From: Myxococcaceae bacterium JPH2
GTDB lineage: Bacteria; Myxococcota; Myxococcia; Myxococcales; Myxococcaceae
Length of the DNA: 64,000 nt
NCBI GenBank assembly: GCA_016458225.1
Contig: JAEMGR010000005.1
Location: 186,001 to 250,000, forward strand
Direction of reading: 5' to 3'
The position numbers and the translations under genes are program-made. The notes below the pieces were generated by a model, which was not told where the DNA came from, ran no database searches, and was given only the letters and a program-made list of their open reading frames with translations. Positions 50,638 to 59,946 of this stretch are shown one piece after another (within the stretch, counting starts at the first letter, position 1; each line of letters begins with the position of its first letter).

Positions 50638-51690
50638 ATGAGGGTTGGACGGGGCGCACTGTTGTTCGCGTTGGCGCTCGGCGCGTGCAAGCCGCGCGCG
50701 GTCACGGAGCCGGACGCCGGTGCGACCTCGGTGCCTGGCCGTCCCGCCACCGTGACGATGCCTGGCTGCGAGACCCTGTTCCCAGCCGACGTGCGCGAGC
50801 TGACCCTCAACGGCTTCACCGTGAAGGAGTCGCGCGCGTGTCCGACGTGCGGCCCGGTGTGCACCTTCCGCTCGGCGGCGGAGCCCGAGACCACGGTGTC
50901 CATCGTCTATGACTGCCAGGAGCACTACGCCACCGCGGACGTGCATGCGCTGCTTGAGCCCACGCTGAACGCGGGAGGCATCGAAGTGCCCGCCCTGGGA
51001 CGCGCCGCGGCTCGCCGCAACCCGGTGCAAGGCATGACGCAGGTGGTGGCCTGGGACGATGACTCGCCCTGCGCCGTGGTCGTCACGTGGCTCGGAGGAG
51101 ACACGGAGCGGGCGCTCGACGTGACTCGGCTCGCGCTTCAAGTCCATTCGGATCCTGGGCACGCCGCGCATCCAGGGCCTGCGTCAGAGGACGGCGCGCT
51201 CACGGACGCGGGTGACAGCGCGCTCCCCGGCGCACCGAGCGCGACGGGCTCTCGCGAGGACACGCTCCTGCCCTCCGACCTTCCGACTCCGTCCAGCGCC
51301 AACTCGCCGACGGTGCCGGCACAGCGTCCGAGCACGCCCGGCACAGCGTCTCCCGCGGTGCGCCCGAATCCCGTTGGCGCGGGCTCCCCTGCGACGCCCG
51401 TGGTGCCTTCGCGCGGTGCGACCGTGCCCACCGGAGGACGTCCGCCCTCTTCGGAGGCGGGGACGGCGCTCGGCGCTCCGAGCGGCGTGACGACACCGCG
51501 CCCGGAGACACGGCCTGCGCGCCCAACGGAGAAGTCCGCGCATGACGCGGGCACTTCGCCTTCTCCTGCTCACAGCTTGAGCGCGCACGACGCGGGCACG
51601 CTTCCCCACGCCCAAGCGGCCCCCGCGAACGTCGCGCCCCGTCTGGCTGACGATGCGGGAACGCCTGCGCCCGTTGGCGCTCACGAGTAG
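50638..51690 (+). CDS. Lipoprotein with Pro/Thr/Ser-rich tail
   Basis: A 350-residue protein. The signal ends in a lipobox LGAC at residue 17. A folded domain of about 140 residues follows with Cys residues in CETLFP, CPTCGPVC and DCQEHY, consistent with disulphides. The last 180 residues are low-complexity, rich in Pro, Thr, Ser, Ala and Gly with repeats of HDAGT-like units, and are probably unstructured. GAGGAGAG precedes the ATG at 50638. A run of stem-loops follows its stop. Confidence 0.75.
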   Translation: MRVGRGALLFALALGACKPRAVTEPDAGATSVPGRPATVTMPGCETLFPADVRELTLNGFTVKESRACPTCGPVCTFRSAAEPETTVSIVYDCQEHYATADVHALLEPTLNAGGIEVPALGRAAARRNPVQGMTQVVAWDDDSPCAVVVTWLGGDTERALDVTRLALQVHSDPGHAAHPGPASEDGALTDAGDSALPGAPSATGSREDTLLPSDLPTPSSANSPTVPAQRPSTPGTASPAVRPNPVGAGSPATPVVPSRGATVPTGGRPPSSEAGTALGAPSGVTTPRPETRPARPTEKSAHDAGTSPSPAHSLSAHDAGTLPHAQAAPANVAPRLADDAGTPAPVGAHE

Positions 51691-51742
51691 TCGCGGCGAA
51701 ACGGCCTCGCCTCGCGGGACTGGGGCCCAATCCCTTTCGTGG

Positions 51743-51895
51743 CCATGTTGCTCGCGAGACAACATGGGTTCTTCGAGGGGTTGCCCTCGCGGCAACACGC
51801 CGTGCCCGTCCATCTCTCTGCCCTAGAGGGAGAAGCCACCGTGCCGTGATTCGGCACGCGCCCTGCTTTGGGCCCCGTCACGGCTCGATGAGCCG
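51743..51895 (+). other. Cluster of four stem-loops between two secreted-protein genes
   Basis: Four perfect small hairpins occur within about 150 bases: 51743-51767 (8 bp), 51780-51796 (6 bp), 51841-51857 (6 bp) and 51881-51895 (6 bp). The last ends 21 bases before the next start at 51917, so part of the structure could be the leader of that gene; the first two may end the previous transcript. Confidence 0.45.
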
Positions 51896-51916
51896 CGGAC
51901 CCAAACAGGACGACAC

Positions 51917-54109
51917 ATGCATACGACCCTCGCCTCTCTCTTGAAGGCACGACCGCACCGCGTCTGGTGGGCGGGCGCCTCCGTGATGGCCCTGCTCCAC
52001 GGCAGCACCGCGCTGGCCGAGACGTGCCCCACCCCCACGGTGGCCCTCTGCCAGCAGATGGACTTCCTGCAGAGTTCCTGCGGGCAGCAAAGCCAGACGA
52101 AGTGCGGCGATATCCTCTCCGCGGAGTGGAAGAAGAAGCTCTCGACCTTCCCCAAGCGCTCGTCCCAGCTCCCTGCCTCCATGGGCGGACAGGTCGTCAC
52201 CACCAGCTACCTGGCGCGCGACCCGTCCAAGGATCAGCTCTCCGGCCTCGAGGACACCTTCGCGGGCACCGTCCTCAAGAACCAGCAACTGTATCGCAAG
52301 CAGTTCAAGAACCTCGACGAGGGAGACAAGCTCCAGCAGGAACTGCTGAGCAAGTGGAGTGGGAACGGCGAGGCCGTCACCTCGTGCCAGGAATACGTCG
52401 ACGAGAAGTACAACGACTACAGCCGCTTCGAGGCACGCGCGGGCCAGTTCGGCACGGACTACCTCGCCGTGTTCAACGCGGCCAATGCCGCGGAAGGCGG
52501 CATCGCGGACCGCAAGCTGTATGACCGGTCCGGCAACACGCTCGCGCCCATCTGGTCGACGCAGCGGCTGGAGAAGAACGCGTACTACCTGTTCGCCCCC
52601 GGGCCCTACCCCGACGGGACCACGGCGTATGTCTTTAGCGACAGCCTCTTGAAGCAGGTCAACCCCAAGGGCCGCACGTGGTTCGTCGCCACGGACAAGT
52701 GGCACCAGACCCTGGCCGCGTCGCTCGCCAACTACCACGTGGACGAGCTGAACAACCTCCAGGCACAGCAAGAGGACTTCGCCGCGCTGCTCGACCGCCG
52801 AGCCCAGGCGTGGAGCTTCTACCAGGCTGAGCTGGCTCGCATGAAGGCCGCGGATGTGGACCCCAAGGAGCTCAACCAGGTCACCGCCAAGAGCCTGTAT
52901 GAGATGGACGCCGCCATCGAGCGCAGCCTCGAGAGTGGCGCCAAGCAGGGCTGCCTCAATCTCGCGGCCAACACGAAGTGCGATTGGTCTCCGCGCCGCT
53001 ACAAGAAGATGCTCGACGCGGCGATGTTCCCGCGCCGGCAGGCGGACTACCAGCGCTGCCTGACGCTCACGGCCAATGACTTCGGGCCCGACAGCTTCGT
53101 GCGCAACTCGGACAAGCTGGGCATCGAGGGCCTGAAGGGCGACCACACCCTCAACGTGGCCCTCCTGGATGAGTACCTCACCCGCTACGCCGGTCAGCTC
53201 GTGGGCAACATCACGCCGGTCGACCCCTCCACCGGCCTGCGCCGCGCCGGGGCCGAGCGCAGCGGCAACAGCCTCCTGGGCAACGACACCTTCGGGCTCG
53301 CGTATGACTATGCCGGAGGCTGGGGCCTGGACTTCGGCGCCGCGCCCCTGGGCATCAACACGGGAGGAGCCCGGCTGTGTGACGCGAACCTGCGACTGTA
53401 TGGGCGCTTCAGCGCGAACGCCGTCGTCTTCGGAGGCCGCGCCGAGGTCATCAACGCGAGCGCCCTGGGCGAGACCGAGACCGCGAGCGTGCACCTGCAG
53501 GCCAACCTGCGCGTGCTGGGCATGGACATCGCGCCCTTCCCGTACGATCAGCACTTCCCCGCGCGCTTCAACGTCTCGGCGAGCCCGTCGCGCGCTGGCA
53601 CCATCTTCTCGGCCAGCGGCACGTTCGTGGTCGTCTTCATCCCCGTCACGGTGACGGCGGGCCTCAACGGCGCCGTGGGCCTGCAGCTCGGCCTCAATGG
53701 TGGCGTCGCGCGCGACTGCGTCAACGACACCGTGGGCGTGGACCTCAATGGCAACGTCACGCCGTTCGCCCGGCTGGATGCGATTGCCTCCGTGACCGTG
53801 GGCCTGCCGGGTATCGCCACGGCGGGCGTCATGGGCACCCTCAACCTGGTGCGCGCGGACATCCCGCTCACGGGTCAGCTGGGCCTCTACGTCACGTCGC
53901 CGAGCCACCCGACATTCCCGTCCATGCTCGTGCTGCACACGGGCACGTCGCTGGGTCTGAACCTGGAGGCGCTGTCTGGCCGGGTCGTCGTCTTCGCCAC
54001 GCTCGGCCCTCAGTACGGTGAGCTCGAGCTGGCCTCGTGGGCGGGCCTCGCCTACCACACGACGCTGTTCAACGACTCGTTCGAGACGCCGCTGGCCTCG
54101 CTCCGCTAG
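51917..54109 (+). CDS. Large secreted protein with helical N-half and beta-rich C-half, unknown
   Basis: A 730-residue protein with a signal peptide (long basic n-region, cleavage after STALA). Residues ~35-380 are charged and mainly helical with a few Cys residues; residues ~430-700 are Gly/Val/Thr-rich beta strands, several amphipathic (VFGGRAEVINASALG, VTAGLNGAVGLQLGLNGG). The second half looks like an extended lipid- or surface-binding sheet. It is the first of four secreted-protein genes in a row. No family is recognised. Confidence 0.78.
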   Translation: MHTTLASLLKARPHRVWWAGASVMALLHGSTALAETCPTPTVALCQQMDFLQSSCGQQSQTKCGDILSAEWKKKLSTFPKRSSQLPASMGGQVVTTSYLARDPSKDQLSGLEDTFAGTVLKNQQLYRKQFKNLDEGDKLQQELLSKWSGNGEAVTSCQEYVDEKYNDYSRFEARAGQFGTDYLAVFNAANAAEGGIADRKLYDRSGNTLAPIWSTQRLEKNAYYLFAPGPYPDGTTAYVFSDSLLKQVNPKGRTWFVATDKWHQTLAASLANYHVDELNNLQAQQEDFAALLDRRAQAWSFYQAELARMKAADVDPKELNQVTAKSLYEMDAAIERSLESGAKQGCLNLAANTKCDWSPRRYKKMLDAAMFPRRQADYQRCLTLTANDFGPDSFVRNSDKLGIEGLKGDHTLNVALLDEYLTRYAGQLVGNITPVDPSTGLRRAGAERSGNSLLGNDTFGLAYDYAGGWGLDFGAAPLGINTGGARLCDANLRLYGRFSANAVVFGGRAEVINASALGETETASVHLQANLRVLGMDIAPFPYDQHFPARFNVSASPSRAGTIFSASGTFVVVFIPVTVTAGLNGAVGLQLGLNGGVARDCVNDTVGVDLNGNVTPFARLDAIASVTVGLPGIATAGVMGTLNLVRADIPLTGQLGLYVTSPSHPTFPSMLVLHTGTSLGLNLEALSGRVVVFATLGPQYGELELASWAGLAYHTTLFNDSFETPLASLR

Positions 54110-54134
54110 CGGCAGCTCCGCAGTCGCAGTCCCT

Positions 54135-54166
54135 GGCCCCGGAGCGCTCCCTCGCGCTCCGGGGCC
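54135..54166 (+). terminator. Very stable hairpin between genes one and two of the secreted cluster
   Basis: A perfect 13-bp GC stem (54135-54147 with 54154-54166) and a 6-base loop, 25 bases after the stop. It has no U-run; it may stabilise the upstream message or reduce downstream expression. Confidence 0.6.
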
Positions 54167-54197
54167 CCTGCCCCACCGCCTCGCCCGAGGACCTTCC

Positions 54198-56105
54198 ATG
54201 CTCCGCAATTCCTCTCTCGTCGCCCTCGTGGCGGCCACCCTCCTGTTCGCCCTGGGGATCGTCTTCCTCCCGCGCCTCGGCCTGGATTCCGCTCGCGCGC
54301 CGACAGGCTTCGCGGTGAAGCCAGACTGGGTCCCCGGCACGCGCTACGCCTATGCGTTGCACTGGCAGAGCCTCCAGCGCGTCCCGAGCCTGCTGCCGCA
54401 GGGCCAGGGGACGCCCTCGCTTTTGGAGGCCCAGCTGCGGCTCTCCGGCACGCTCGTGCTGCGGGCGCTCGAACGGAATGACGACGGGTTCGTCCTCGGC
54501 GCCGCGCTCGAGGACGTGGCGGAGCACGCGCTGGAGTTCCAGGGCCAGGATGTCTTGCCTGACGAAGCCTCCGTCACCGCGGCCTTCCGTGGACACGAGG
54601 CGTGGGTGGAGCTGAGCCCGCGGGGCACGCTCCGCGCCATTCGCTTCGCGCCGGATGCGCCGGAGCTCTTCAAGCAATCGCTCCAATGGCTCATCACCGA
54701 GACGTTCCCCTCGCTCCCCGCCACCGAGGTCCAGGCGCGCGCCGGGGCTTGGGACTCGGCCGAGGCCACGGCCCTGGGCCACGTGCCCGCGCACTACGCG
54801 ATGGAGCCGGACGCGTCGCTGACGCTGCGTCGCACGCGGGGCCTCTACACGCAGCTCCACAGCGCGCCTGCCGGTGTGCCGCCGCACACGGTGACGTCCG
54901 AAGCCCGCTTCACCTTCGCGCCCGAAGGACACCTGACCGACGTCATCCATCAAGAGACGGTGCGCGCCGAGGCGGAGGACGGCCTGGACACGCGCGAGCT
55001 CTTCCAACTCCACCTGCGCGCGGTGACGCGCTTCGAGTCCACCGGGAAGTTGGACCTCGCGTCGCGCTCCGAGGTGCGCCAGCCCGGCGCGATGTACACG
55101 TCCACGGACGCCGAAGAAAAGCTGCTGACCCAGCGCGCGGACGGGCTGACCTTCGACACGCTGCTCAACGACCTGTTCACCCACGGCAACGCGGGCGAGA
55201 TGCCCGAGAACGGCCGCTGGCTGTGGCGCGCCACGGGCCTGCTGATGCTCCATCCCGAGCGATGCAAGGAATTGGCGGTCTACTTCCAGGACCCGGGCAC
55301 CGAGCCCTCGGGGCAAGCGCTGGTGCTCGACCTGCTCGTGGGCGCGGGCCACGCCGAGGCCCAGGCCCAGCTGCGTCGCCTCGTCGATGACCCCGCCGCG
55401 CGCCGCACGCCACAAGCGCATGGACTGCTCTTCCAACGCCTGGGGCTCGTGGCGCACCCGACTCCCGAGACGGCGGACTTCGTCGCCCAGCACCTCGCCA
55501 CGGCCATCACGCAGAACGACACGGACCTGCGCGATGCCAGCGCCCACTCGCTCGGCGCGGTGGTGGGACACCTGAGCGTGGACGCGGATCCGACCGTGGT
55601 GGCGCGCTACAACCAGGTGCTGACCGAGGGGCTCGCCAGCGCGCGAGCTCCCGACGCGCAGCGCACGTACCTCCGAGCGTTGGGCAACGCGGGCCTCGCC
55701 GAGAACATCGCGCGCGTGCTGCCCTTCGCCGACGCGGCCGACCCGGGCGTGCGCGAGGCCACCGCCACCGCCTTGCGCAAGACGCCCAGCCCCGACGCCA
55801 CCGCCACGCTCCTCCACCTGGCGCGCGCGCCCGAGCAGCGCGTCCAGGCCGCGGCGCTCGACTCGCTGCGGGAGCATCCGCTCGATGCGGCCTCGCTCAC
55901 GATGCTGCGCGACGTCGTCGTGGGCGGCACGCTGCGCCCCGGCTCCGAGTCGCTCGTGGCGAACCTGCTGGAGCGTCGGCTCGATGGCGGCCCCGTCGTC
56001 GTCCAGGCCCTCCAGGCCCTGTCCCTGCGCGCTCGCGAGGACCCTGTCCTGCGCGCTCGCGTGCTCCAGCTCCTCGCGCGAGCGGCCCTGGTGGCCTCGC
56101 GCTGA
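54198..56105 (+). CDS. Secreted protein with vitellogenin-like N-sheet and HEAT-like superhelix
   Basis: A 635-residue protein with an N-terminal hydrophobic signal or anchor (LVALVAATLLFALGIVFL). Residues ~40-280 are beta-rich and open with WVPGTRYAYALHW, like the start of lipovitellin N-sheets, with a later GTLRAIRFAPDAPELFKQSL segment. From ~310 to the end the protein is a run of helical pairs (LLNDLF, LVLDLLVGAGHAEAQAQL, DLRDASAHSLGAVVGHL, RVQAAALDSL) like HEAT or lipovitellin superhelix repeats. The family in animals carries lipids. Homology is my inference from pattern only. GAGGA precedes the ATG at 54198. Confidence 0.72.
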   Translation: MLRNSSLVALVAATLLFALGIVFLPRLGLDSARAPTGFAVKPDWVPGTRYAYALHWQSLQRVPSLLPQGQGTPSLLEAQLRLSGTLVLRALERNDDGFVLGAALEDVAEHALEFQGQDVLPDEASVTAAFRGHEAWVELSPRGTLRAIRFAPDAPELFKQSLQWLITETFPSLPATEVQARAGAWDSAEATALGHVPAHYAMEPDASLTLRRTRGLYTQLHSAPAGVPPHTVTSEARFTFAPEGHLTDVIHQETVRAEAEDGLDTRELFQLHLRAVTRFESTGKLDLASRSEVRQPGAMYTSTDAEEKLLTQRADGLTFDTLLNDLFTHGNAGEMPENGRWLWRATGLLMLHPERCKELAVYFQDPGTEPSGQALVLDLLVGAGHAEAQAQLRRLVDDPAARRTPQAHGLLFQRLGLVAHPTPETADFVAQHLATAITQNDTDLRDASAHSLGAVVGHLSVDADPTVVARYNQVLTEGLASARAPDAQRTYLRALGNAGLAENIARVLPFADAADPGVREATATALRKTPSPDATATLLHLARAPEQRVQAAALDSLREHPLDAASLTMLRDVVVGGTLRPGSESLVANLLERRLDGGPVVVQALQALSLRAREDPVLRARVLQLLARAALVASR

Positions 56106-56142
56106 GTCCGCAGTCCCACTCCCGCCTCACGACGGACCTCGC

Positions 56143-57921
56143 ATGAAACCTCAACCACTCTCGCTTCTCCCTGGCCTGTTGCTCTCGGCGTTGGTGCTCT
56201 CGAGCACCGCGCTGGCGGGCCCCGCCGATGACTTCGTCCGTGGCGCCAGCCTGCGCGTCAACCACGCCACGGTGACCTTTGACGGCCACGCGTACAGCGC
56301 GACGGACTATGTGATTGCCAAGAACTCCGGCTCGCTCAACCTCGTGCTGAGGGCGCAGGACTTCGGCTTCGCGTCCGACCTCGTGGTCCACATGACGGGC
56401 TCGCGCTCCGGCAACACCGTGACGTGGGACTTCGACGACTGGCTGCCCACGCCCTATGACCTGGGCGGCTTCTACTCCTTACGGCGCGTCTACGGTCACC
56501 TCGTGGCGAACGTGGAGCTGGTGTACGGCACGGACTCGCCCGCCTGTGGCGGCACCGCGCTGTGCCCCTACAACGTGCGGCTGCGGCTCGGCGCGGGGAC
56601 GTGGCTGCGCGTGGCGGGGAGCGGACCGTTCTGGCACCCCAACTTCGACGAGGCCATCTCCGTCTCCACCTTCACCGCGTTCGGTGGGCTGCCGCGTCCT
56701 CGCCTGTCCTGGCTCAACCTGCAGCGCCCCGCGCGCTATTGCGTGGGCAGCGCGCCCACGTACTTCGCCGGCGAAGTGACGCTCAGCACGCCAGCGCCCA
56801 CGGGCGGAGCCTGGGTGGACTTCACCAGCAGCTACGGCGCAGGGATCTCCGTCGCGGGCCTGTACCTGGCCCAGGGCCAGACGTATGGCCGCTTCGACGT
56901 GCGCGTGGCACCGGGGTTCGAGGGGACCGCGCGGCTGACCGCTTCGTCCGGTGGCGCGGTGGCCTCCGAGCTGGTGGAGATGAAGCAGAGCCCCTTCTGC
57001 TTCAAGTCCGTCGACTGGCTGAACATCAAGGCCGTGCTGTGTGAGAAGTGCCTGCTCGTGCGCGCCGTCAACGCGCGCGGCGACGTGCTGGGCCAGCAGG
57101 GCGGCTCGGATGTCGTGGTGACCGCGCAGGGGACGACGCTCAACCTCGCCAAGCTCATGGGCGCGGAGCACGTGGATGGCTCGCGGCTCAATGTCTGGGG
57201 CCAGGTGACGGGCACGGCCCTCATCAACGGCACGGCGCAGTCGTTCCTGTTCGACACCACGAACCTGAAGGCGAAGCCCACCGTGCTGAAGGCGGGCGCG
57301 GCGCTCGGACTCAATGACGTGGGCACCGTGGTGGGTTCGCAGACCGATGGCAAGACGACGCGCGCCTTCCTCTTCGATGGGCAAGAGGTGCGGTCCTTGC
57401 CGCTCCAAGCCGAATGGAGCACCGCGGTCGCGGTGAACAACCGCGGCGTCGTGGCGGGCAGCTATGACAGTGGCAAGGGGCACCGCGCGTTCCGCGCGTT
57501 CCTCGACACGGCCGAGGACCTGGGCGACCTGGGTGGCGGCGAGAGCGAGGCGCGCGCCCTCAACGAGCAGGGCGTGGTGGTGGGCACCGCGAAGACCGAG
57601 AAGGGCACGTGGACCGCCTTCCTCTCGCGTCCCAAGGAGGGCCTCAAGGACCTGGGCTCGCTGGAGAAGCTCCCGTTCAGCGTGGCCACCGCCATCAACT
57701 CAGCAGGCTGGGTGGTGGGCATGGCTCACGACGGCAAGCCCGACGGCACGCGCCGCGCGTTCCTCTACACCCCGGCCGAGGGCCTCATCGACCTCACCTC
57801 GCGCGTCTCACCCGAAGCGAAGCTGACCGTGCTGGAAGCGCTCGACATCGATGACTCCGGACAGGTCCTCGTCCGTGCCCAGCGCGATGGCAAAGACGGC
57901 TTCTACCTGCTCGCGCCCTGA
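56143..57921 (+). CDS. Secreted protein with C-terminal HAF repeats
   Basis: A 592-residue protein with a signal peptide (LLSALVLSSTALA). Residues ~25-300 are beta domains with two Cys pairs. From ~310 on, HAF-type beta repeats appear: units such as ALGLNDVGTVVGS, AVAVNNRGVVAGS, ARALNEQGVVVGT and ATAINSAGWVVGM, each followed by an AFLF/AFLY strand. These repeats usually form a propeller-like extracellular domain. The segment KAVLCEKCLLVRAVN links the halves. The ATG at 56143 is 38 bases past the upstream stop, so the gene is probably in the same operon. Confidence 0.82.
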   Translation: MKPQPLSLLPGLLLSALVLSSTALAGPADDFVRGASLRVNHATVTFDGHAYSATDYVIAKNSGSLNLVLRAQDFGFASDLVVHMTGSRSGNTVTWDFDDWLPTPYDLGGFYSLRRVYGHLVANVELVYGTDSPACGGTALCPYNVRLRLGAGTWLRVAGSGPFWHPNFDEAISVSTFTAFGGLPRPRLSWLNLQRPARYCVGSAPTYFAGEVTLSTPAPTGGAWVDFTSSYGAGISVAGLYLAQGQTYGRFDVRVAPGFEGTARLTASSGGAVASELVEMKQSPFCFKSVDWLNIKAVLCEKCLLVRAVNARGDVLGQQGGSDVVVTAQGTTLNLAKLMGAEHVDGSRLNVWGQVTGTALINGTAQSFLFDTTNLKAKPTVLKAGAALGLNDVGTVVGSQTDGKTTRAFLFDGQEVRSLPLQAEWSTAVAVNNRGVVAGSYDSGKGHRAFRAFLDTAEDLGDLGGGESEARALNEQGVVVGTAKTEKGTWTAFLSRPKEGLKDLGSLEKLPFSVATAINSAGWVVGMAHDGKPDGTRRAFLYTPAEGLIDLTSRVSPEAKLTVLEALDIDDSGQVLVRAQRDGKDGFYLLAP

Positions 57922-57942
57922 CTCCTTCCCGGTACTCCTCCC

Positions 57943-58644
57943 ATGAAGAACTCTCTTCTGAACTGCATTCTCTTGATGGCCGCCAGCGCGGTGATCGCCT
58001 CGGGCTGCAACGGCTGTGGCGGTGGTCCCACCTGTGACAACTCCCGCATCGCGCAGCAGGGCGGATGCTGCCGCACCGACAGCGCCACGCCCTGCGATGG
58101 CTCGCTCACCTGCAACAATGGCGCGTGCACGCCCTGCGGCGCCGCGGGGCAGCAGTGCTGCAACACCGGGGTGACGGAGACGTGCGCAGCGGGCCTGAGC
58201 TGCGAACTCCAGTCGAGCGGCCTGCACACCTGCAATGACTGCGGTGGACTGAACGAGCGCTGCTGCCAGGGCAATCGCTGTGAGAACACCTTCACGTGCA
58301 ACACGGACACGAACCGCTGCATCAGCGCGGCCTCGGTCCATTGCACCGGTGGCGCCAACCACTACGTGATTGGGGTGAGGGACAGTCAGCTCTGTGGCCA
58401 GAGCACCCTGGACATCAACGCCGACACGCCCGAGCAGGCGCTGGAGTGCGCGCGCACCATGCCCCTCCCGCCAGGCGGCTCGCTTGTCCCCGCCCCGGCC
58501 GTCCTCCAGACGTTCCAGATGTGCTTGTCCACCACGACCATGGGCGTGCAGCGGCGCAACATCCGCGCGTTCAGTGACTACGACGCTCGCCAGTGCGCCT
58601 TGAACACCTGCGAGAACTGCACGGACGCCCGCTTCGACTGCTGA
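57943..58644 (+). CDS. Cys-rich lipoprotein
   Basis: A 233-residue protein. The signal ends in a lipobox ASGC near residue 22. The following ~110 residues contain more than 25 Cys residues, in repeats with adjacent Cys pairs (GGCC, QQCC, ERCC) and CxxC spacings, typical of knotted disulphide domains in myxobacterial surface proteins. The last 100 residues form a more ordinary domain with four Cys. It starts 21 bases after the HAF-repeat gene and ends the four-gene cluster. Confidence 0.8.
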   Translation: MKNSLLNCILLMAASAVIASGCNGCGGGPTCDNSRIAQQGGCCRTDSATPCDGSLTCNNGACTPCGAAGQQCCNTGVTETCAAGLSCELQSSGLHTCNDCGGLNERCCQGNRCENTFTCNTDTNRCISAASVHCTGGANHYVIGVRDSQLCGQSTLDINADTPEQALECARTMPLPPGGSLVPAPAVLQTFQMCLSTTTMGVQRRNIRAFSDYDARQCALNTCENCTDARFDC

Positions 58645-58676
58645 AGCGCCCTTCCCGCCCCACGGCCCCGCCGGAA

Positions 58677-58698
58677 TCCTGACAGCCTGATGTCAGGA
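58677..58698 (+). terminator. Inverted repeat after the Cys-rich lipoprotein gene
   Basis: A perfect 8-bp repeat (TCCTGACA and TGTCAGGA around six bases). It may end the secreted cluster or act as an operator for the following glycosylase gene, which starts 63 bases later. Confidence 0.45.
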
Positions 58699-58761
58699 AC
58701 AAGGGGATACGGATATGTCTCCGTCGCTCGCGGTGGTGAGCGACGGGGACTGGGAACGGGA

Positions 58762-59946
58762 ATGGTGAAGCGGAACTCCGGAGTGATGGGCCCCCGCGCG
58801 CTCAATCGCGCGCTGCTCGCTCGGCAGATGCTGTTGCGGCGTGCGCGGCGCCCGGCGCTGGAGGCCATCGAGCACCTGGTGGGCATGCAGGCCCAGGCGC
58901 CCAATCCGCCCTACGTGGGGTTGTGGACGCGGCTGGAGGGCTTCGCTCACGACGAGCTGTCTCAGCTCGTCCTCGCGCGGCAGGTGGTGCGCACCGTGAT
59001 GATGCGCAGCACCATCCACCTGGTCTCCTCGCGGGACTGCCTGACGCTGCGCCCCGTGCTCCAAGGCTTCCTGGAGCGCGCCATGCTCGCGAGCCGCCAC
59101 GGCAAGGGCATCGCGGGCATCGACCCCGCCGCGCTCACGGCGGCCGGTCGCGCGCTCATCGAAGAGCGCCCGCTCACACTCGCGGAGCAGGGCGCGAAGC
59201 TGGCGGAGCGCTGGCCGGGCCGCGACCCCACGGCGCTCGCGCAGGCCATCCGCACCTGGGTGCCCTCCGTCCAGGTGCCACCGCGCGGACTCTGGGGCGG
59301 CAGCGGACAGGCCCAGGTCACCTCCGTCGAGGCGTGGCTGGGACAGCCCCTGGGCACCGACACCGCGCCGGATTCCTTGGTGCTGCGCTACCTGGCCGCG
59401 TTCGGGCCCGCCACCGTCAAGGATGTGCAGCTCTGGTCCGGGTTGACGCGGCTGCGCGAAGTCATCGAGCGGCTCAAGCCCCAGCTTCGCGTTTTTCATG
59501 ACGAGCACGGCGACGAGCTGCTCGACCTCCCCAACGCACCTCGCCCCGACGCGGACGCTCCCGCCCCGGTGCGCTTCATCGCCGAGTTCGACAACCTGAC
59601 GCTCTCCCACGAGGACCGCTCGCGGATCATCTCCACGGAGGACCGCTCGCGCATCGCGACCCTCAACGGCATCGTGCCCGGACTCATCCTGGTGGATGGC
59701 TTCGTCGAGGGGACCTGGAAGCTGGAGCGCCAGCGCACCGCCGCCACGCTGCACATCCTGCCGTTCCGTCCCTTGGCCGCCTCGGACCGGACGGCCCTCG
59801 CCGACGAGGGCGCGAAGCTGCTCGCGTTCCTCGCCGGGGATACTCCGTCTCAGGACGTGCGGTTCGGCGCGGAGAAGCGCTCCGCGCCGGCCCAGCCTAA
59901 AGCGTCTGCAGGTACTCCACGAGGTCGTCCAGCTCGGCGGGCTTGA
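58762..59946 (+). CDS. Winged-helix DNA glycosylase, AlkZ-like (HTH_42 family)
   Basis: A 394-residue member of the AlkZ/YcaQ family, three winged helices that cleave alkylated bases and unhook interstrand crosslinks. The active-site motif reads QAQ within HLVGMQAQAP, matching the Gln-x-Gln of AlkZ and not the Gln-x-Asp of E. coli YcaQ. Conserved MMRSTIHLVS and FDNLTLSHEDRSRI segments are also present. The latter is partly duplicated: EDRSRI appears twice, nine residues apart. The start is ambiguous; the ATG at 58762 is used, with others at 58690 and 58786. Its last 50 bases overlap the cytochrome gene on the other strand. Confidence 0.87.
   Translation: MVKRNSGVMGPRALNRALLARQMLLRRARRPALEAIEHLVGMQAQAPNPPYVGLWTRLEGFAHDELSQLVLARQVVRTVMMRSTIHLVSSRDCLTLRPVLQGFLERAMLASRHGKGIAGIDPAALTAAGRALIEERPLTLAEQGAKLAERWPGRDPTALAQAIRTWVPSVQVPPRGLWGGSGQAQVTSVEAWLGQPLGTDTAPDSLVLRYLAAFGPATVKDVQLWSGLTRLREVIERLKPQLRVFHDEHGDELLDLPNAPRPDADAPAPVRFIAEFDNLTLSHEDRSRIISTEDRSRIATLNGIVPGLILVDGFVEGTWKLERQRTAATLHILPFRPLAASDRTALADEGAKLLAFLAGDTPSQDVRFGAEKRSAPAQPKASAGTPRGRPARRA
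59611..59655 (+). repeat. 27-base in-frame tandem repeat inside the glycosylase gene
   Basis: GAGGACCGCTCGCG occurs at 59611 and again at 59638, period 27 bases (nine codons). The second copy continues CATC where the first has GATC. The result is an EDRSRI unit twice in the protein. Confidence 0.8.

Follow-up and report, generated by a model that had tools for sequence, protein, structure and literature searches.

What is the function of four consecutive genes for exported proteins in Myxococcaceae bacterium JPH2? The genes, here called A, B, C and D, lie within a 64,000-nucleotide stretch (the window; contig JAEMGR010000005.1, positions 186,001 to 250,000) of a 9.0 Mb genome. A first-pass annotation had proposed that their products form one surface or extracellular assembly, possibly for handling lipid or anchoring to a matrix, and our literature search, whose coverage was incomplete, found no description of a system of such composition.

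Gene layout and signals

The cluster comprises four plus-strand genes separated by gaps of 88, 37 and 21 bases, which reproduces the coordinates and spacing first annotated. The longest open reading frames of B and C start within the preceding gene, at 54018 and 55885, respectively; we used later starts because they agree with those of the homologues. The four frames have a GC3 of 0.88-0.92 and are divided as follows.

51917-54109, plus strand: gene A, 730 aa, exported, with an N-terminal helical part and a C-terminal beta-sheet domain
52034-53206, plus strand: predicted helical part of A, residues 40-430, with conserved Cys and a CDWSPxR motif (model DSSP and family alignment)
53216-54106, plus strand: predicted beta domain of A, residues 434-730, with long antiparallel strands; candidate half of a lipid cavity (model, Foldseek and VIA)
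54110-54197, plus strand: A-B intergenic stretch, containing a 13-bp GC hairpin at 54135-54166 without a T run
54198-56105, plus strand: gene B, 635 aa, with an N-terminal hydrophobic helix, then a predicted beta barrel like that of the large lipid transfer proteins (LLTPs) and a HEAT superhelix
54315-55097, plus strand: beta barrel of B, residues 40-300, whose predicted fold resembles the N-terminal barrel of apoB, MTP and lipovitellin
55101-56102, plus strand: HEAT-repeat alpha superhelix of B, residues 302-635, containing the Vitellogenin_N match
56143-57921, plus strand: gene C, 592 aa, an exported HAF-repeat protein, with repeats at about 373-551
57943-58644, plus strand: gene D, 233 aa, a Cys-rich lipoprotein of no known family

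The N-termini, judged by eye and with a simple script, bear out the earlier claim that all four proteins carry export signals. Those of A and C are signal-peptide-like, D has the lipobox ASGC, with invariant Cys across nine homologues, and B has a hydrophobic helix at residues 6-22 without an obvious cleavage site, which reads more like an uncleaved membrane anchor. The vitellogenin-like HEAT protein and the HAF-repeat protein named by the same annotation were recovered as well: in Pfam and NCBIfam, B matches Vitellogenin_N (28 bits, cut-off 24) and is above the cut-off for HEAT_2, and C matches DUF3466 (32.7, cut-off 25.1) as well as the HAF repeat TIGR02913 (64.6 bits, cut-off 22.65), as do four of six C relatives. 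D matches no Pfam or NCBIfam family.

The hairpin between A and B has a fold z-score of -3.35, with an equally good fold in 1 of 200 shuffled sequences, and is also found in a close sister species, whose B is 93% identical at the protein level. Such a hairpin could control how much A is made relative to B, through partial termination or mRNA processing. A scan of positions 51600-58900 returned neither promoters nor terminators, and is uninformative for a genome this rich in GC.

Linkage of A with B across Myxococcota, and the C-D module

We now turn to the company that these genes keep in other genomes. A search of 98 related genomes found A in 27 and B in 24, and the two were repeatedly adjacent. 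When family profiles were applied to 195 Myxococcota genomes, A was matched in 75, and a B gene was located within about 3 kb (3.1 kb) of 134 of the 139 A genes, where the A genes are merged match fragments and the B set includes 15 genes found by reading loci. The co-occurrence that the first-pass annotation had proposed to check consequently holds for A and B. A precedes B in 99 of these pairs, with a median gap of 79 bases between the matched parts, B precedes A in 27, and the two lie on opposite strands in 8; co-localisation that persists through such rearrangement argues for a joint function, and not only for inheritance within one operon. Five A genes have no nearby B (G004:C627, G077:C353, G134:C880, G184:C1 and G193:C553), and the matches in G134:C880 and G193:C553 reach a contig end. 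Seen from the other side, 31 of the 150 B matches listed have no A listed nearby, several of these being an extra B copy by dnaA. The number of genomes with a B-profile match (177 of 195) was not used as a distribution, since it is inflated by HEAT repeats. A plasmid search found no relatives of A.

The genome of the window itself contains three A-B pairs, namely the one in the window, one on G000:C23 and one on G000:C6 (23103-26451; 7083-10473 in locus L211), the last with a short A on the strand opposite to B. Across 32 A-B pairs, the tree distances of the two proteins correlate with r = 0.90, a value reached in 0 of 2000 label permutations; much of this correlation reflects shared ancestry. 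A second test, which controls for species by exchanging partners between the paralogues of each of seven genomes, placed the true pairing second of 384 arrangements. Shorter A relatives (about 400-450 aa) retain mainly the beta domain and still adjoin B, so it seems to be the beta domain that goes with B. A natural A-B fusion was also considered as proof of contact, and was dropped when none appeared in the long frames examined around several B matches. Both the gene structure in the window and the A-B linkage across the phylum are direct observations, and the pairing is well supported.

Two further arrangements were seen around the pair. In several Myxococcus genomes, with gene names assigned by eye from sequence, an A-B pair lies between the rnpA side and dnaA, and a second B without its own A lies across dnaA, so that these genes flank it (L114 3787-11688, L135 8570-16471 and L137 9294-17185). 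In Myxococcus, a gene for a trypsin-like secreted protease, recognised by eye from its GTLIDDDLVLTAGHC motif, is found just upstream of A (L103 4087-5760, L104 4787-6106, L105 14334-15653 and L106 5004-6395); it is absent from that place in the window.

Genes C and D behave differently from A and B. We examined 31 named loci. They were chosen by an A-family query, and some are paralogous pairs from one and the same genome; their counts are therefore not estimates of frequency. A-B is present in all 31. The order A-B-C-D recurs in 11, which is more than chance: in Citreicoccus inhibens, in seven records labelled Myxococcus (M. llanfairpwll..., M. qinghaiensis, sp. CA023, M. eversor, M. dinghuensis, M. 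vastator and M. xanthus AM003), in one labelled Comamonas, in a Myxococcaceae MAG and in an Archangium MAG. The other 20, including those of Corallococcus, have A-B without C-D. Every C match that includes the N-terminal part of the protein has D next to it (10 of 10); there are 12 D matches in all, of which two, both weak (E 4e-5), do not lie beside C. Of the ten C-D pairs, seven lie by A-B, two are located elsewhere (L122 and L128) and one starts at a contig edge (L129).

These data bear on the idea that all four genes encode one surface or matrix assembly, in which A and B are merely structural parts. The recurring order in Citreicoccus, Myxococcus and Archangium-type genomes, the short gaps and the export of C and D all speak for such an assembly, but the 20 loci that carry A-B without C-D, together with the two genomes where C-D lies away from A-B, make it distinctly improbable. 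The annotated four-gene assembly therefore holds in part only: C-D is a separable module, distinct from A-B.

Two observations accompany these loci. The myxobacterial cluster is also present in the records BNCN01000008.1 and BNCN01000009.1 (L154 and L164), whose title, 'Comamonas sp. KCTC 72670', looks wrong. In another genus, a gene for a different Cys-rich lipoprotein recalls D in its position, sharing a 4-base overlap with the end of B (L118 5358-8929).

Predicted folds of B and A

The predicted model of B has a mean pLDDT of 85.4 and a pTM of 0.56. In a Foldseek search of the PDB, its first 11 matches are all LLTPs, led by MTP (5.7e-15) and lipovitellin (5.9e-13) and followed by apoB-100 and honeybee vitellogenin. 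By VIA, the model aligns to lipovitellin 1lsh over 526 residues (Z 17.7, 11.4 Å, model 43-618) and to MTP over 505 residues (Z 16.1, 10.9 Å, model 40-615 on MTP 24-614), and residues 40-300 align to the apoB barrel 9bd8_A over 233 residues (Z 17.8, 4.5 Å). The sequence of the family points the same way, mostly through its HEAT region: a B-family profile finds lipovitellin 1lsh among PDB sequences at 6.6e-13, over profile positions 150-534, and MTP at 4.4e-5, and Vitellogenin_N is matched at E<=0.01 in 22 of 31 B homologues.

HEAT repeats, however, match many unrelated proteins, and B might instead be a generic HEAT scaffold joined to an unrelated barrel by convergence, in which case A-B would be an exported complex with a non-lipid function. 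Unrelated HEAT folds, such as alphaRep and the importins, reach VIA Z-scores of 16-19 on the helical half of B, artificial HEAT proteins outscore lipovitellin and MTP in the profile search, and the barrel by itself has no sequence match to LLTPs. One of 14 control genomes also has a Vitellogenin_N match above the cut-off, so that a single match would mean little by itself. Since unrelated HEAT proteins do equally well on the helical half, what points to LLTPs is the barrel and the order of barrel and superhelix. Among the VIA matches listed, only LLTP chains span the barrel together with the helical half, with the order kept (families missing from these lists are not counted as excluded). The Z-score of 17.8 for the barrel, the independent return of LLTPs by A (described below) and the Vitellogenin_N matches in the window's own genome, which are three only and fall on the three B genes that adjoin an A gene, likewise count against convergence, which we regard as unlikely. 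We therefore assign the predicted fold of B with good confidence; that its domain layout equals that of an LLTP over the first two thirds is, as a model, well supported. The B chain stops after the helical domain, and a sheet-rich protein is encoded separately, by A.

A belongs to no Pfam or NCBIfam family and has no PDB sequence relative, and by these searches it is a new sequence family. We rejected a sequence link between A and the lipid-domain families of LLTPs, as none of the searches gave a significant match: Pfam at E-values up to 10, PF09172 and PF19444 (each above cut-off in 0 of 96 genomes, the former also without a significant match in an earlier search of three genomes), and PDB sequences with the beta domain by itself. 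The A' gene gave a sub-threshold PF09172 match in each of two sister genomes (E 0.54 and 0.99), which we treat as a single event. A strict script finds a lipobox in 2 of 32 A relatives.

The structural model of A (pLDDT 75.6, pTM 0.59; mostly 52-86 in the beta region) predicts a helical part and 15 long antiparallel strands at residues 442-728. Foldseek ranks three MTP chains, lipovitellin and vitellogenin as its top five, with E-values from 2.0e-6 to 8.4e-4; the next is a membrane-attack-complex protein at 1.4e-2, and outer-membrane barrels appear only at about 0.04 and above. The TM-scores to LLTPs are low, at 0.11-0.18, and hence there is no single rigid superposition. VIA gives a tie, with FhuA (Z 8.7, 6.8 Å, 152 residues) and the autotransporter BrkA (Z 8.0, 3.5 Å, 127 residues) slightly above apoB (Z 7.9, 21.9 Å, 198 residues, model 447-725 on 634-1017) and MTP (Z 7.8, 9.3 Å, 234 residues, model 118-724 on MTP 546-877), and with many porins at Z 6-7.

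The C-terminal domain of A could accordingly be an outer-membrane beta barrel or a surface beta domain, with B as its periplasmic scaffold or chaperone and with no lipid carried. The FhuA, BrkA and porin scores, the long alternating strands and the aromatic last residue of some homologues speak for this reading. But that residue is found in only 7 of 32 A members, Foldseek places LLTPs some four orders of magnitude ahead, the alignment to MTP covers more residues, and a barrel leaves unexplained why the constant partner B has the N-terminal plan of an LLTP. We consider this reading quite unlikely. The fold class of A, and its C-terminal sheets as the lipid-binding half, are held with medium confidence on the strength of the model. 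A and B were folded and searched separately, and both models match MTP, lipovitellin and vitellogenin, which lends weight to the lipid handling that the first-pass annotation had raised as a possibility.

A putative two-subunit lipid carrier and comparable systems

We propose, with a probability of about 0.6, that A and B form a two-subunit, envelope-located lipid carrier resembling MTP and vitellogenin. The N-terminal helix of B would be held in the inner membrane, with its barrel and HEAT superhelix facing the periplasm and corresponding to the half that serves as scaffold in MTP, vitellogenin and apoB. A would be exported separately, and its long-stranded C-terminal sheets would replace the LLTP lipid-binding domain, sitting in the cradle of the B superhelix and enclosing a hydrophobic cavity. 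Membrane or neutral lipid would enter this cavity and be handed on, whether to another carrier, to the cell surface or to the outer membrane. The C-D module would be an accessory exported pair, joined to the A-B carrier in some lineages and perhaps tying it to the cell surface, a role suggested by their linkage. From the folds and the gene linkage we infer the physical A-B complex, its location, its lipid cargo and transfer, the direction of transfer and the role of C-D.

A stronger version is tentative, and we lean against it: A-B may be a genuine prokaryotic LLTP, with B as the scaffold and A as the lipid cavity, present as several paralogues per genome and moving envelope lipid, from which the animal LLTPs descend or with which they share an origin. 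The LLTPs are regarded as a family that arose in animals. If the proposal is true, bacteria possess, in two pieces, a counterpart of a lipid machine known from animals. Such a split bacterial LLTP would provide the family with an outgroup. It would also allow the building and filling of the cavity to be studied in a tractable two-part system, and would add a new route of lipid movement in predatory, lipid-storing and membrane-exchanging bacteria.

One of the closest known systems is the large subunit of microsomal triglyceride transfer protein (MTP). A review (PMC3337244) divides MTP into a barrel (22-297), a helical domain (298-603) and, at 604-894, a C-terminal beta domain that holds the lipid binding and transfer activity. 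The VIA mappings of our two proteins onto it are complementary, with B on 24-614 and A on 546-877; the model of B matches the barrel and helical domains, and A aligns to the lipid-binding sheets and to the last part of the helical domain. In animals, however, MTP is one polypeptide, whereas two genes are found here, and A has no detectable sequence similarity to the MTP lipid domain. B likewise shares the predicted barrel-plus-superhelix plan of vitellogenin/lipovitellin and apolipoprotein B-100, and its profile finds 1lsh by sequence. In contrast to those proteins, there is no single large chain here, PF09172 is not reached, and A has an extra helical part with conserved Cys. C resembles the HAF-repeat exported proteins (TIGR02913, DUF3466), being well over their cut-offs, but differs in its additional N-terminal region and its linkage to D. 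We do not file A-B as a member of the LLTP family, because the sheets are not in the same chain and A has no match to the lipid-domain families; it plausibly works like one.
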